The notes beneath the pieces are model-generated. The model worked only from the letters and a program-made list of their open reading frames with translations, had not been told where the DNA came from and searched no databases. A stretch of 33,002 nt of DNA, taken from positions 1-33,002 of the IMG/VR virus record IMGVR_UViG_3300021142_001973; one strand, written 5' to 3'. The translations under genes were made by a program, and so were the position numbers. Below, piece by piece: positions 19,859-33,002 of the stretch; position 1 is the stretch's first letter, and each line of letters starts with the position of its first letter. The DNA is from a virus.

Positions 19859-20149
19859 ATGAGATTACGACCATTAAATGAAAAAATTGTAGTTAAACGA
19901 TTCAAAGAACCCGAAACAACCAAGGGCGGTATAGTCATCCCCGATAATTTTTCTGAACGAGCCGAGCACGGCAAAATCCTAGCAGTGGGACCGGGCAAAC
20001 GCGACAAATACGGTGAATTAGTGAAAATTCGTGCTCGAGCTGGAGATCACATTCTGTTTCATCAGCACGCTGGGCAGACTGTGGAAGTGGACAAGGAAGA
20101 ATACGTTATTTTGACAGAAAACGATATTTTGGGAATTATCAAGCAGTGA
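19859..20149 (+). CDS. groES: GroES co-chaperonin
   Basis: A 96-residue protein, normal GroES length. It begins MRLRPLNEKIVVKR and has the mobile loop EPETTKGGIVIPDN that contacts GroEL, the conserved GKILAVGPGKR, and the C-terminal EEYVILTENDILGII. It would cap host GroEL to fold phage proteins. T4 uses the unrelated-looking gp31 for this job; here the sequence is bacterial-like. No GroEL gene is in the window. AAGGA lies just before the start. Confidence 0.95.
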   Translation: MRLRPLNEKIVVKRFKEPETTKGGIVIPDNFSERAEHGKILAVGPGKRDKYGELVKIRARAGDHILFHQHAGQTVEVDKEEYVILTENDILGIIKQ

Positions 20150-24266: not shown

Positions 24267-25451
24267 ATGTCTATGACAAAATACCCTTATGTTGAAGACT
24301 ACATTGAGTTTATTGGCGGATATAAAAATCCCAAAAATTCTTTACCAATTGTTTCAGCACAAGAAGACAGTCCCCTAAATTTGGCCAGATATGATGTCAA
24401 AATGATTGATAGTCTTGCCACACAAAGCATGAACGGAACCGGCTACACCGATCGTCAAGCACCATTAGCAGTGCAATTGGTTCTCAAATACGAACGTCAA
24501 TTGACCAAAAACAATGTGGACATTGAACCAGTAAAACTGGCAGCCAAGTTTCGCTTGCCCATTAGGGTACTTGATAGATCCACACGAGCCTGGATCGAAG
24601 ACGAAATGATTCGTCTACGATTTCCCTATAGTGTTGAACTGGTAGAAGAACTTAGAACTGCAGCAAAACAAAGTCATGGCATGATGCAGTTTCACCGCGA
24701 CAGTAAACAGTGGCGTGCCAGTTTAACCGAACATAATGTAAATTTGGTTTACAGTTTTGCTGAGAAAAACAAGATCACAATTGATCCCACATTGTCCGAG
24801 GTCATGCAGTTGATATTGGCGTGCGAAAAAACTGCCTACAAGATTGAATTGGTGGCCGATGATCAGTTAAGAATAACCAATGCTGAATCCAGTTTAGTAG
24901 AATATGTTGAACAACATCTAGGCGGATTTAAGTTAGATAATATTCTAACACTTGCAGATCGCAGTGCTGAATTGGGATTTACAGTAAATAACGTTATAGC
25001 CGATGTTATCATTCAAGCATACGGAACTAGATTCTACAGTTTATGTATCAATCGTGAAATTAAAATCGCACGAGAATCTCGGCAGAGCGATCAAGTCAGT
25101 GAAATTGTTCGTTATGCCACTGAGACCAAAAGATTTCCCATTTACATATACGAACCCAACATGAGTGACTGTATTAGTCATTTGTTTGCCAGTTATTTTA
25201 CCAAAGAACAAGTGGTCAATTTGAACTCGCTAACAACTGATTACCAACCCGGTGCAGAAGATCGATTGGTGTACTTCAATCGTATTCCCAAATATTCTCT
25301 GGATCGAATTCCGTTGTTTATCAGCACAGCCGGAATGTTATTTGGCGGTGACAAAATTATATGGACACAGGCATCTGAAAAAATTGTGTATTTCACTGAA
25401 GAAGTGTACAGTAAAAATAACCGAGGGCGCGAAATTTGCAGGCTAAATTAA
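24267..25451 (+). CDS. Uncharacterised protein coupled to UvsW
   Basis: A 394-residue soluble protein without Walker or membrane motifs. Residues near 136-170 (FHRDSKQWRASLTEHNVNLV) resemble the substrate-recognition modules that accompany some SWI2/SNF2-like helicases (HARP-type domains), but this is a weak visual match. The start is the ATG at 24267, or the ATG at 24273 if the transcript is leaderless. Its last 16 nt overlap the UvsW gene, implying a joint role in recombination or replication restart (inference). Confidence 0.75.
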   Translation: MSMTKYPYVEDYIEFIGGYKNPKNSLPIVSAQEDSPLNLARYDVKMIDSLATQSMNGTGYTDRQAPLAVQLVLKYERQLTKNNVDIEPVKLAAKFRLPIRVLDRSTRAWIEDEMIRLRFPYSVELVEELRTAAKQSHGMMQFHRDSKQWRASLTEHNVNLVYSFAEKNKITIDPTLSEVMQLILACEKTAYKIELVADDQLRITNAESSLVEYVEQHLGGFKLDNILTLADRSAELGFTVNNVIADVIIQAYGTRFYSLCINREIKIARESRQSDQVSEIVRYATETKRFPIYIYEPNMSDCISHLFASYFTKEQVVNLNSLTTDYQPGAEDRLVYFNRIPKYSLDRIPLFISTAGMLFGGDKIIWTQASEKIVYFTEEVYSKNNRGREICRLN

Positions 25452-26896
25452 TAATACGAGACGAAGTTAATCTAAAAATAGAAGGACTTGATCTTTCCAC
25501 AAGAAAAAAACTTGTGGATCGGTTTAAATTTACGATGCCCAATGCTAGGCATCTACCAGCAGTGCGATTGGGAAGATGGGACGGCAAAATTGCATTCTTT
25601 CAATTGGGCGGTAGCAGTTACATAAATCTTTTGCCGGATATCATACCCATATTAGAATCTGACGGCTATGATATTGAAATAGAAGATCTACGAACCTACA
25701 GTACTCAATTTGCATTTGATGAAATACGAGAAGACACTTTTGCGGACAAGGTGTGGCCCAAAGGGCATCCTAGAGAGGGCGAATCAATTGAACTCAGGGA
25801 TTATCAGCCTGAAATATTAAACAGATTTCTAGCCAATCCACAAAGCATACAAGAAGTTGCCACCGGAGCCGGAAAAACAATCATGACCGCGGCCTTGAGT
25901 CGGAGTGTGGAGCAGTATGGTCGCAGTATTGTTATCGTGCCCAACAAAAGCCTAGTTACACAAACCGAAGCCGACTACATCAATCTTGGGTTGGATGTGG
26001 GCGTGTACTTTGGCGATAGAAAAGAATACAATCGTACACACACTATTTGTACCTGGCAAAGTCTAAACAACATGTTAAAGATGACCAAGTCGGGCGATGC
26101 CGAAGTGGAAATAGGTGACTTTATCGAGGGGGTGGTCTGTGTCATTGTTGATGAAGTACACATGGCCAAAGCCGATGCTCTCAAAAGTCTCTTGACCACA
26201 GTGTTTGCACATGTGCCGATTCGTTGGGGGCTGACCGGAACAATTCCCAAAGAAGATTACGAAAAGATAAGTATATTTTGTAGTCTAGGCTCTGTAGTAG
26301 GACGACTCAGCGCCAGTGAACTTCAAGAAGCGGGACATCTTGCCAACTGTCATGTGAACATAGTGCAGTTGGTGGATTACGTAGAATACAAAGATTATCA
26401 ACAAGAACTAAAATATCTAGTAGAAACACCCGAGAGAATTGCATACATGAGTCAATTTATAACTCGTGTTAACGATACCGGCAATACTCTTGTACTTGTG
26501 GATCGGGTAGCAACAGGTAAACTATTGGTTGAACTTTTAGGCGAGCGGGCAGTCTTCGTTAGTGGTGCAACAAAAGGATCTAAGAGACAAGAAGAATATG
26601 ACGAAATCGCAACTAGTACTGGCAAGATTATTGTGGCGACTTACGGTGTGGCCGCAGTGGGTATTAATCTCCCTCGTATTTTTAATTTGGTTTTGGTGGA
26701 ACCCGGAAAGAGCTTTGTTAGGGTTATACAAAGCATTGGACGAGGTATACGAAAAGCAGAAGATAAAGACCACGTAGAGATTTGGGACATTACAAGCACA
26801 TGTAAGTTTGCCAAACGGCATTTGACCAAGCGACGTGCGTTTTACAACGAAGCCAATTACCCGCACACAACCGAGAAAATAGAATGGCAGAAGTAG
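25436..26896 (+). CDS. uvsW: UvsW-like superfamily 2 DNA helicase
   Basis: A 486-residue SF2 helicase. It has an N-terminal DNA-binding region with LGRWDGKIAFF (45-55) aligning with T4 UvsW, then Q/motif I ATGAGKT (142-148), motif II DEVH (239-242), motif III GLTGT (265-269) and motif VI QSIGRGIRK (432-440). UvsW unwinds branched DNA and R-loops and drives the switch from origin- to recombination-dependent replication. Translation probably starts at TTG 25436, with GAGGG at 25423-25427 and no ATG before the conserved N-terminal region. Slightly shorter than T4 UvsW. Confidence 0.92.
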   Translation: MQAKLIIRDEVNLKIEGLDLSTRKKLVDRFKFTMPNARHLPAVRLGRWDGKIAFFQLGGSSYINLLPDIIPILESDGYDIEIEDLRTYSTQFAFDEIREDTFADKVWPKGHPREGESIELRDYQPEILNRFLANPQSIQEVATGAGKTIMTAALSRSVEQYGRSIVIVPNKSLVTQTEADYINLGLDVGVYFGDRKEYNRTHTICTWQSLNNMLKMTKSGDAEVEIGDFIEGVVCVIVDEVHMAKADALKSLLTTVFAHVPIRWGLTGTIPKEDYEKISIFCSLGSVVGRLSASELQEAGHLANCHVNIVQLVDYVEYKDYQQELKYLVETPERIAYMSQFITRVNDTGNTLVLVDRVATGKLLVELLGERAVFVSGATKGSKRQEEYDEIATSTGKIIVATYGVAAVGINLPRIFNLVLVEPGKSFVRVIQSIGRGIRKAEDKDHVEIWDITSTCKFAKRHLTKRRAFYNEANYPHTTEKIEWQK

Positions 26897-30244: not shown

Positions 30245-30999
30245 TAGATAAATTAATAGCAAATGGATGTAGTTACATGAACAACTACACCAAAGGACAT
30301 GGCAAAAATGGCGGACACGTTGATTTAGCAAAAAGATTAAACATGTCAAAAGTGGACAGTATAGATGTGCCCGGCAGTGCCAACAGTAGAATCTTACGCA
30401 CCACTTTGAAACACAGTTACATGACTCAAGAGCCCACATTTTATCTCTTGGGCATGACCTTTGTCAGTCGTGAAGAAATACCCATACTCAGAGTTGACGA
30501 TGAACACACATTTGAAGGACGCTGGAACAATCCGGCCAATCAAATTTTTATAGACCGATGGGAACATCATTGGACCAAAAAAGATGTTGAACGCTATGTA
30601 GATTTTCAACGCAAATGGGAAGTGTACAGTCTACTGGATCGTACAGAAAATTTAATGTACATGATGCTGGCCGCCATAGACAGTTTGCACAGTCGTGGGC
30701 ATCAGGTCTTGATGTATCAACAGGCAGATACCGATTATTGGAGCCTATACGACAACCCCAAATTGAATCTGTTTACCAGTACTCCCTGTATCGTAAATGC
30801 ATTTCGTTGGAGTGCTACCAAATATCAACACGATATGGGAGTTCCACCAGTTCCTATAGATCCCAGTTTACCGCAAAGTCTATTGCCCATTCCACACGGA
30901 CCAGTCACTCCGGATTATCAAAAAAAGCCCAGTGATCATACAGTATTGAATGAATTTTTAGTTGACTATATCCACGAACATAAATTACTAGATGTATAA
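30241..30999 (+). CDS. SGNH-like protein (copy 3)
   Basis: A 252-residue protein starting MIDKLIANGCSYMNNYTKGH, again with GCS in place of GDS and a GSANSR block II-like segment. A C-terminal KPSDHTVLNEFL carries D-x-H-like residues (SDH) where the catalytic His is expected. It begins at an ATGA overlap with the clamp-loader candidate and overlaps the next gene by 8 nt. Three such genes in 4 kb is unusual. Confidence 0.72.
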   Translation: MIDKLIANGCSYMNNYTKGHGKNGGHVDLAKRLNMSKVDSIDVPGSANSRILRTTLKHSYMTQEPTFYLLGMTFVSREEIPILRVDDEHTFEGRWNNPANQIFIDRWEHHWTKKDVERYVDFQRKWEVYSLLDRTENLMYMMLAAIDSLHSRGHQVLMYQQADTDYWSLYDNPKLNLFTSTPCIVNAFRWSATKYQHDMGVPPVPIDPSLPQSLLPIPHGPVTPDYQKKPSDHTVLNEFLVDYIHEHKLLDV

Positions 31000-31672
31000 G
31001 TGTAAGTATTGTGAAAAAACATATCGTAAAGAAAGTACGTTATTTGCACACTTGTGTGAGCAAAAACGACGTTGGCAACAAGAAAAGGAAACCGGAGTAC
31101 AACTGGGACTTAAAGCATATCTGAGATTTTATGAATTAAGCCAAGGTAGTGCAAAGTTAAAAACATATGCGGATTTTGTTACTAGTCCTTATTATAATGC
31201 TTTCGTCAAATTTGGAAGATACAGTCAATCTATACGGTGTATTAATTTTGGCAATTATTTGGATTGGTTACTGCGTAACAACAAAAAAATAGATCGCTGG
31301 TGTAGTGATCAATTGTATACCGAATGGCTGCCGGAATATTTGAAAAAAGAAGCAACTCAAGATGCACTGGAACGTGCACTTAAAGAAATGACCGAATATG
31401 CAGAAACACATCCCGAACTTAGAAATGGCTTTAGTGACTATTTCAGATACGGTAATGCCAATCGTATTTGTTATCACATCAGTACCGGTCGTATTAGTCC
31501 TTGGGTTATCTATAATTGTGGATCTGGTATTCAATTTCTTGAAGAACTTAATGAAGAACAAACCGTGATAATACTGCCCTGGATCGATCCCGAGTACTGG
31601 CAACGACGATTTCATGACTATTTGGCCGACGCCGAATGGGTCAAAGATATATTACAAAAAGCCGGATTATGA
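30992..31672 (+). CDS. Zinc-finger-like conserved phage protein
   Basis: A 226-residue protein starting MYKCKYCEKTYRKESTLFAH. The first 30 residues form a C2H-type finger (C4, C7, H20 and probably C23). The remainder, including YYNAFVKFGRYSQSIRCINF and LPWIDPEYWQRRFHDY, is a compact helical domain that looks conserved but that I cannot name. DNA or RNA binding is plausible. A small overlapping frame starts near its end. Confidence 0.78.
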   Translation: MYKCKYCEKTYRKESTLFAHLCEQKRRWQQEKETGVQLGLKAYLRFYELSQGSAKLKTYADFVTSPYYNAFVKFGRYSQSIRCINFGNYLDWLLRNNKKIDRWCSDQLYTEWLPEYLKKEATQDALERALKEMTEYAETHPELRNGFSDYFRYGNANRICYHISTGRISPWVIYNCGSGIQFLEELNEEQTVIILPWIDPEYWQRRFHDYLADAEWVKDILQKAGL

Positions 31673-31754
31673 TATAGAACCAATATCTCATATTGATATT
31701 GACTTTATAAATGAGAGAAGGTTGGGCAAGACGAAAAGCAGAAAGAATAAATGA
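31614..31754 (+). CDS. Short overlapping ORF with DnaE-like DIDIDF motif
   Basis: A 46-residue frame overlapping the end of the zinc-finger gene by 59 nt and joined to the mini-DnaE start by ATGA. It carries HIDIDFINERR, resembling the PDIDIDF-x-x-x-R motif of C-family polymerases, which appears again at the start of the next gene. It may be a small real protein or the leftover of a longer, split polymerase-like gene. Confidence 0.4.
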   Translation: MTIWPTPNGSKIYYKKPDYDIEPISHIDIDFINERRLGKTKSRKNK

Positions 31755-32350
31755 ATCTAAAAACTAAATTCTCTAGTGACATTGACATTGACTTTGGTGA
31801 CAGAACTCAAGCATTGAATCTACTTCGGCATACACCAGCCGGTATTGCCAGAGACAGTCAAATGATCAAACACAATACCGGAGTTTATGTTACCAACATA
31901 CCAACAGATCCCTTTACTGGAATAGCCACAATAGATCACAAAACGGCTGAAGACTTGGGATATACCAAATTGGACTTTTTGAATGTGTCATTATATACAC
32001 AGATAAAGAGCGAGCAACATCTAACGGAATTGATGATTCGCGAGCCAATTTGGGAACTGCTACAGGATCGCGAGTTTTGCAGCCTTGTGATACACATCGG
32101 CAATCATTATGATCTCATACAAAAGTGTCCGGAACCGGTCAATTCAATCCCGAGAATGGCCATGTTATTGGCCTTGATACGTCCGGGAAAAAGGCATTTG
32201 GTGGGACGTCCCTGGCGAGAAGTTGCCGAAACAGTTTGGACTGCTACCGAAGAAGGTTATACATTCAAAAAGAGCCACGCCGTGGCCTACGCACATCTTG
32301 TTGTGGTTCACATGAACCTCATATGCGAACAAGTCAAGGCATCCGCCTAA
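31751..32350 (+). CDS. Miniature DnaE-like (C-family DNA polymerase) protein
   Basis: A 199-residue protein whose landmarks run in the same order as in the DNA polymerase III alpha core: DIDIDF (10-15) with the paired Asp residues, HNTGVYVTNIP (41-51) like the AGVHAGG region, KLDFLNV (73-79) matching KFDFLGL with its catalytic Asp (D75), ALIRPG (141-146) matching ALYRPGP, and FKKSHAVAYA (172-181) matching FNKSHAAAYA. Full DnaE is about 1,160 residues. PHP, thumb, most of the fingers and OB domains are missing. Whether it polymerises, or has become a regulator or structural factor, cannot be told. It ends 17 nt into the convergent gene. Confidence 0.75.
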   Translation: MNLKTKFSSDIDIDFGDRTQALNLLRHTPAGIARDSQMIKHNTGVYVTNIPTDPFTGIATIDHKTAEDLGYTKLDFLNVSLYTQIKSEQHLTELMIREPIWELLQDREFCSLVIHIGNHYDLIQKCPEPVNSIPRMAMLLALIRPGKRHLVGRPWREVAETVWTATEEGYTFKKSHAVAYAHLVVVHMNLICEQVKASA

Positions 32351-32708
32351 CCAGAGTGATATTTTTACGTTTGCTGCGTTTTGTGGCCATTTCTTTTAGG
32401 CTCACATACGGGCCCATCTTGATCTCTACGTCTTTGCTGTTCATTGTACGTAAGCAGACTCTAAACTGATTCCAATCCGACTTCAAAAACACATTGATTG
32501 GTATAAGCCTATTGCTTTCCCACCACCAAGTCTCGCCCAAGGCCAGGTAAGATTTTTTTAACGCTGCGTCCTTTAACAATCCAAAATCGTATAAAGTTGT
32601 GATAATTTCATCGGAATTTTGTATGATTCCAATATAGTCGTTGCCACCATAAGTTACATAACTTATAAAGGGATATTCGCCTAGTAGTTGCTTGTAGTGT
32701 TCTTCCAC
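32334..32708 (-). CDS. Conserved-looking phage protein, function unknown
   Basis: A 124-residue frame from GTG at 32708; an in-frame GTG at 32774 would add 22 residues. The shorter start fits a promoter-like TTGACA (minus 32753-32748), 17-nt spacer, TTTAAC (32730-32725). The protein shows YGGNDYIGIIQNSDE, ETWWWESNRLIPINVFLK and a basic C-terminus (ATKRSKRKN and RR near the end), suggesting nucleic-acid binding. Family not named. It converges on the mini-DnaE gene with a 17-nt overlap. Confidence 0.7.
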   Translation of the reverse strand: MEEHYKQLLGEYPFISYVTYGGNDYIGIIQNSDEIITTLYDFGLLKDAALKKSYLALGETWWWESNRLIPINVFLKSDWNQFRVCLRTMNSKDVEIKMGPYVSLKEMATKRSKRKNITLVRRMP

Positions 32709-32715
32709 GGTTTCC

Positions 32716-32723
32716 GATAAATA
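32716..32723 (+). promoter_or_regulatory. Late-promoter-like octamer GATAAATA
   Basis: GATAAATA lies 16 nt before the ATG at 32740, the normal spacing for a T4-like late promoter, and in front of a probable virion gene. This is the best-placed late motif in the window. Confidence 0.6.
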
Positions 32724-32739
32724 TGTTAAAGACAACGAA

Positions 32740-33002
32740 ATGATCACTGTCAAAGCATATTTATATCCAAACACCGTCGAGGTTCAAGTTTTTGATCCCA
32801 CGATATTCACTACAAGGAACAGAAAAGTGTACTCACGTCCTATTAAAATTTATCAGGGAGTAGATAACCCCATACAAGTGGTAGTCATGAATCAGGATCA
32901 AAAACCCGTAAATCTAACTGGTAGCAGTGTCACTGCCAGTATTCAAGACCCCACAAATCAAGTCACTGTAAAAAGTTATCCGGTGACCTGGGCCAACATA
33001 CA
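32740..33002 (+). CDS. Probable virion protein, N-terminal part (cut by window edge)
   Basis: 87 residues are visible, starting MITVKAYLYPNTVEVQVFDP. The segment IYQGVDNPIQVVVMNQDQ followed by PVNLTGSSVTASIQDP looks like the N-terminal domain of baseplate/tail-fibre-associated proteins of the BppU type (a beta-sandwich with a D-x-D-x-x-P-V-x-LTG pattern). The late motif upstream agrees with a structural role. The rest is outside the window. Confidence 0.6.
   Translation, partial: MITVKAYLYPNTVEVQVFDPTIFTTRNRKVYSRPIKIYQGVDNPIQVVVMNQDQKPVNLTGSSVTASIQDPTNQVTVKSYPVTWANI

Follow-up and report, generated by a model that had tools for sequence, protein, structure and literature searches.

The 199-residue open reading frame (ORF) examined here is quite probably the gene for one of two subunits, the C-terminal one, of a minimal nucleotidyltransferase of the C family (Pol III alpha) found in large T4-like phages, and the repeated motif in front of it would, on the same reading, be a scar. 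The window, that is, the whole stretch of DNA analysed, is a complete record of 33,002 bases and represents a virus fragment; its relevant features are collected in table 1. Judged from the sequence comparisons, the ORF is real, is under purifying selection and is homologous to DNA polymerase III alpha. Both this homology and the status of the protein as half of an enzyme (hereafter the C-half) are well supported.

Table 1. Features of the window that bear on the C-half gene and its upstream junction
Feature	Position	Strand	Basis
C-half gene of split minimal Pol III alpha, 199 aa	31751..32350	+	PHROG_11778, hhalign, AF2 model, invariant residues
Upstream repeat copy ATTGATATTGACTTT, putative left edge of lost endonuclease element	31692..31706	+	Repeat; same left edge in L019 and L035
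3' end of homing-endonuclease gene (reads MREGWARRKAERINESKN), running into the first C-half codons	31710..31767	+	Identity to L019, NUMOD3 ORF
46-codon HIDIDF frame, read as a chance frame (end of upstream gene, out of frame, plus scar)	31614..31754	+	Locus comparison
226-aa protein with one CxxC...HxC zinc finger, PHROG_11058 (E 2.5e-56)	30992..31672	+	Directly upstream of C-half gene in nearly all relatives; conserved zinc-finger residues; synteny
Small convergent gene, PHROG_11637 (E 2.4e-32)	32334..32774	-	Overlaps 3' end of C-half gene; synteny

The ORF contains the DnaE landmarks in the order that the initial annotation had given. Over almost its whole length it matched PHROG_11778 ("DNA polymerase"; E 1.8e-57), and at least 572 confirmed relatives of the protein were found in IMG/VR. 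Annotated phages with a C-half include RaK2, 121Q, GAP32, CBB, PA5oct, Paride, Atu_ph07, and Phosso. All complete relatives were 182-216 aa long; thus the shortness of the protein is fixed and does not reflect a local truncation. The dN/dS ratio was 0.06-0.12 in the three pairs where it was computable, a rough estimate because dS was high or saturated throughout. Pfam and NCBIfam alone did not recognise the protein, giving only a sub-threshold TIGR00594 match at the FKKSHA segment, and neither phmmer nor hmmsearch returned a true match among PDB sequences. Foldseek alone was weak as well (E 2e-3 for the C-half and 0.26 for the N-terminal partner described below). Therefore, profile-profile and structural comparisons were needed.

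In these comparisons, the C-half family aligned with 13 DnaE sequences by hhalign at E 5.9e-11, with KLDFL placed on KFDFL. The AF2 model was confident (pLDDT 92.7), and its leading PDB matches were all Pol III alpha or PolC chains (Z 6.5-9.9), while everything else had Z of 3.2 or less. Both the profile relationship to C-family polymerases and the structural one, as initially proposed, were thus borne out. The catalytic residues of E. coli DnaE are D401, D403, and D555. Window residues S9-D10-I11-D12-I13-D14-F15 were aligned on E. coli P400-D401-F402-D403-V404-D405-F406; it follows that D10 and D12 would form the catalytic pair and D75 would be the third aspartate, so that D10, D12, and D75 correspond to D401, D403, and D555. 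The initial annotation was right that three catalytic aspartates are retained, and right about D75, but had placed the pair at D12/D14. Among 41 relatives with 39-76% identity to the window protein, D10, D12, D14, and D75 were invariant. The reduced fingers elements of the window protein, ALIRPG and FKKSHAVAYA, were partly invariant in the same relatives (the second as FKKSHAxAY). From D14 to H41 the C-half has 26 residues, compared with 105 from D405 to H511 in E. coli, which is the stretch that carries the thumb; the thumb region of DnaE is replaced by these approximately 26 residues. A complete DnaE, with PHP, palm, thumb, fingers, clamp-binding, and OB regions in one chain, is therefore not what the 199-aa protein represents.

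The C-half is also without the GxGRGS part of the palm. In the relatives, GxGRGSS was found in a separate gene of about 170 aa (the N-half), which is encoded far from the C-half gene in related genomes. In split Pol III alpha, PHROG_11127 is the N-half family and PHROG_11778 the C-half family. The Pfam domain DNA_pol3_alpha was matched once in each of 8 records out of 10. Each match spanned no more than positions ~16-98 of the model, which has 260 positions, and lay in another small ORF elsewhere in the genome and not in the C-half. All of them carried G[LV]GRGS and stopped right after "EFL" plus one or two residues, where E. coli has ERFLNPERVSMPDFDVDF. Consistently, all 80 N-halves fetched ended at EF[LMI][KR] or one residue later. 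The N-half family aligned with DnaE (hhalign E 5.3e-10) and ended at the same place, at about residue 393. Its AF2 model was moderate (pLDDT 80.8, and about 60 around GRGSS) and aligned with residues 278-393 of E. coli DnaE (Z 7.2), and the C-half model aligned with residues 393-784. Thus, the two halves tile DnaE, with the cut at about residue 393. The window protein itself shows catalytic-aspartate homology and starts just before PDxDxDF, as expected of the C-half of a split Pol III alpha. Since half of the palm resides in the partner protein, the 199-aa protein is not a palm-plus-fingers polymerase alone; the radically reduced enzyme of the initial annotation stands as regards C-family homology and drastic reduction, and falls as regards a polymerase acting by itself.

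The N-half gene was found in G001-G004, which are longer contigs of close relatives, and in W01-W08. Among 63 phage records bearing the C-half, 58 also had the N-half by tblastn, the accession lists being compared by hand, and both of the further records covered by Pfam had it too; one of the other three is only 109 kb long. The N-half was absent from the 33-kb window, as would be expected because the record is a fragment. No fused or adjacent arrangement of the two halves was found among the fetched loci. In one 117-kb contig (IMGVR_UViG_3300032288_004815; L104 and L105), the N-half gene occurred twice in opposite orientations, perhaps through an assembly artefact or an inverted repeat. The N-half also matched PHROG_13169 (463 aa) and PHROG_7513 (461 aa) near their C-terminal ends. 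Both families end shortly after the GRGS region, and their members may represent the N-terminal parts of further split Pol III alpha enzymes.

The remaining parts of a bacterial replicase were sought in the carrier phages. PHP was detected in none of nine relative records and in all 14 controls. A separate fingers gene was likewise found in none of the nine, the fingers model giving at best weak matches to the C-half gene itself. The relatives showed neither PHP nor any other Pol III domain. Of 14 records, 11 contained a family-B polymerase (PolB), and those in which it was lacking were three IMG/VR records 81-180 kb long. Several annotated carrier phages have the C-half gene beside primase and helicase genes. 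The circular genome of Alishewanella phage Slicko01 (L222) contains the C-half, the N-half, and PolB, and at only 141 kb it indicates that the split system is not confined to jumbo phages. The PolB match of Slicko01 is spread over two open frames. In the window, a UvsW-type helicase is encoded at 25436-26896, as in T4-like phages.

We hypothesized that the C-half would provide the metal-binding aspartates D10, D12, and D75 and a reduced fingers region, and that the N-half would provide the GxGRGSS loop, whose position in DnaE suggests that it binds the incoming nucleotide. The halves would assemble without splicing into one Pol-beta-fold palm lacking PHP, thumb, clamp-binding, and OB modules. 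Such a pair might carry out short or specialised DNA synthesis (repair, gap filling, or restart) alongside the phage PolB; the loss of the thumb and of the clamp contacts argues against ordinary processive synthesis. The same absences of thumb, PHP, OB, and clamp-binding region would also suit a nucleotidyltransferase other than a templated DNA polymerase (a terminal transferase, or a modifying or priming enzyme) formed by the two halves, in which the palm was kept and processive synthesis was not needed, and a family-B polymerase already serves as the replicase in these phages. However, the fingers elements ALIRPG and FKKSHAxAY have been kept and are partly invariant, and several of these phages have primase and helicase genes next to the C-half gene, so that we regard this alternative as unlikely.

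The DNA in front of the C-half gene has a history of its own. A 15-nt near-exact repeat, ATTGA[T/C]ATTGACTTT, occurs at 31692 and 31781, 89 nt apart, with a chance expectation of 0.01 in the window. The initial annotation had recognised a 46-residue frame with the repeated motif, joined to the 199-aa ORF by ATGA. Frame, ATGA overlap, and repeat are all present; a second protein they are not, the first ~20 codons of the frame overlapping the 3' end of the upstream gene out of frame and the rest being the probable remnant of a mobile element. An uninterrupted junction, of which L004 is an example, was found in 34 of 79 relatives; there, the zinc-finger and C-half genes overlap each other directly at ATGA. 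At the same site, L019 and L035 have an intact 195-aa ORF with NUMOD3 repeats, assigned to a homing endonuclease by PHROG, between the zinc-finger and C-half genes, so that intact element and empty sites are both found, as for a homing endonuclease. In these two loci, ATTGATATTGACTTT stands just before the intact ORF, and the 3' end of the ORF runs into a C-half gene starting MNLK[IT]KFSSDIDIDF. The window keeps the left edge of the element and the last ~40 nt of the endonuclease gene, and ~550 nt between them are missing. In L058 and L065, the element was lost with a different left breakpoint. Between L019 and L035, the element is 86.8% identical and the flanking genes ~70%. Between the window and L019, the 37 nt of element tail that immediately precede the C-half start are all identical, as are 28 of 30 nt of the C-half start, compared with 68% elsewhere. 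The greater likeness of the element and the C-half start than of the flanks is as expected from recent horizontal spread accompanied by conversion of the flanking sequence.

The upstream repeated motif is most likely a scar, left by a selfish DNA element that has since disappeared. A NUMOD3 endonuclease gene would have inserted at the 5' end of the C-half gene, bringing its own copy of the first codons, and would later have been deleted in the phage of the window, leaving the repeated DIDIDF motif. On this view, the left repeat copy would be what the gene had as its 5' end before the element inserted. A tandem duplication of the gene start, encoding a functional small peptide, could likewise produce a near-exact 15-nt repeat at a distance of 89 nt, but is quite improbable, considering that the same two end sequences enclose a full endonuclease ORF in L019 and L035, that L058 and L065 show a second, different deletion, and that the element is so much more conserved between L019 and L035 than the flanking genes. 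Most relatives have no such frame, and the idea that it encodes a conserved small protein was rejected. Gaps of 44-1354 nt between the zinc-finger and C-half genes are common in the relatives and hold varied small ORFs; thus the endonuclease is one of several insertions there. In L031, an endonuclease-VII-type ORF lies at the same junction. Across L001-L080, the junction upstream of the C-half is an insertion hot spot, with NUMOD3, endonuclease VII-like, and many unrelated small ORFs.

The initial annotation also raised the possibility that the 199-aa protein, on its own, has been repurposed to act on host Pol III as a decoy or loader, for which its likeness to the host enzyme and its small size might speak. 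This is the least credible explanation, because the catalytic aspartates are all kept and invariant, purifying selection is strong (dN/dS as above), the same genomes also retain a matching N-half that carries the nucleotide-binding motif, and the DnaE regions that touch clamp, tau, and epsilon are missing, as are PHP and OB.

Two neighbours accompany the C-half gene. The zinc-finger gene was found at 80 of 80, 25 of 25, and 18 of 21 loci in three C-half sets and is a nearly constant neighbour across distant phages; its CxxC...HxC residues are conserved among 127 sequences, and the protein (PHROG_11058) is a candidate accessory subunit. The convergent gene was found at 77 of 80, 23 of 25, and 20 of 21 loci of these sets, and annotated records from very different hosts show the same PHROG_11637 gene, a candidate regulator. 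It is kept in nearly all relatives though the surrounding genes run the opposite way. A GroES-like co-chaperonin frame was noticed by eye at 19859-20149 (+) of the window, and a GroES gene adjoins the N-half in phage Phosso. One may go further and imagine a polymerase of at least three parts, the N-half, the C-half, and the adjacent zinc-finger protein, in which the zinc-finger protein would hold the DNA in place of the missing thumb, the convergent gene would act as regulator, and the whole would serve as a dedicated second polymerase beside PolB. This extension is tentative and, in our view, rather unlikely.

If the split reading is true, a C-family polymerase has been divided at a single constant position next to its active site, and this form has persisted across phages of many hosts. 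The split enzyme would then represent the bacterial replicase in a very small form, on which ideas about the origin of such enzymes could be tested, and the scar would add a case in which a selfish element occupied the most constrained DNA of a replication gene.

The kind of enzyme is already known. Split minimal Pol III alpha was described from sequence in "group 2.2" jumbo phages (Iyer et al. 2021; PMC7824862). To these, the window adds a further member, which comes from a fragment of an environmental phage and is preceded by the probable homing-endonuclease scar, and a relative occurs also in a 141-kb phage. The upstream scar, the conserved three-gene context, and the 141-kb carrier are apparently new, scar and context being modest additions. 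The split enzyme was not mentioned in the passages retrieved from two DNA polymerase surveys, and our literature search found no biochemical test of split Pol III alpha. The intact ORF of L019 and L035 is of the same kind as the free-standing NUMOD3 (PF07460) homing endonucleases of phages, of which the window keeps only the element ends. With E. coli DnaE and full-length phage DnaE, the C-half shares the motifs PDxDxDF, KxDxL, RPG, and FxKSHxxAY in the same order and, as modelled, the fold. Unlike DnaE, the window-type enzyme consists of two chains, cut at about residue 393, and is without PHP, thumb, clamp-binding, OB, and tau-binding regions. Viral PolX, a minimal family X polymerase of viruses (PMC11646218), offers an analogy in its possible working: both are reduced nucleotidyltransferase-fold polymerases in large viruses, but PolX belongs to another family and is a single chain.
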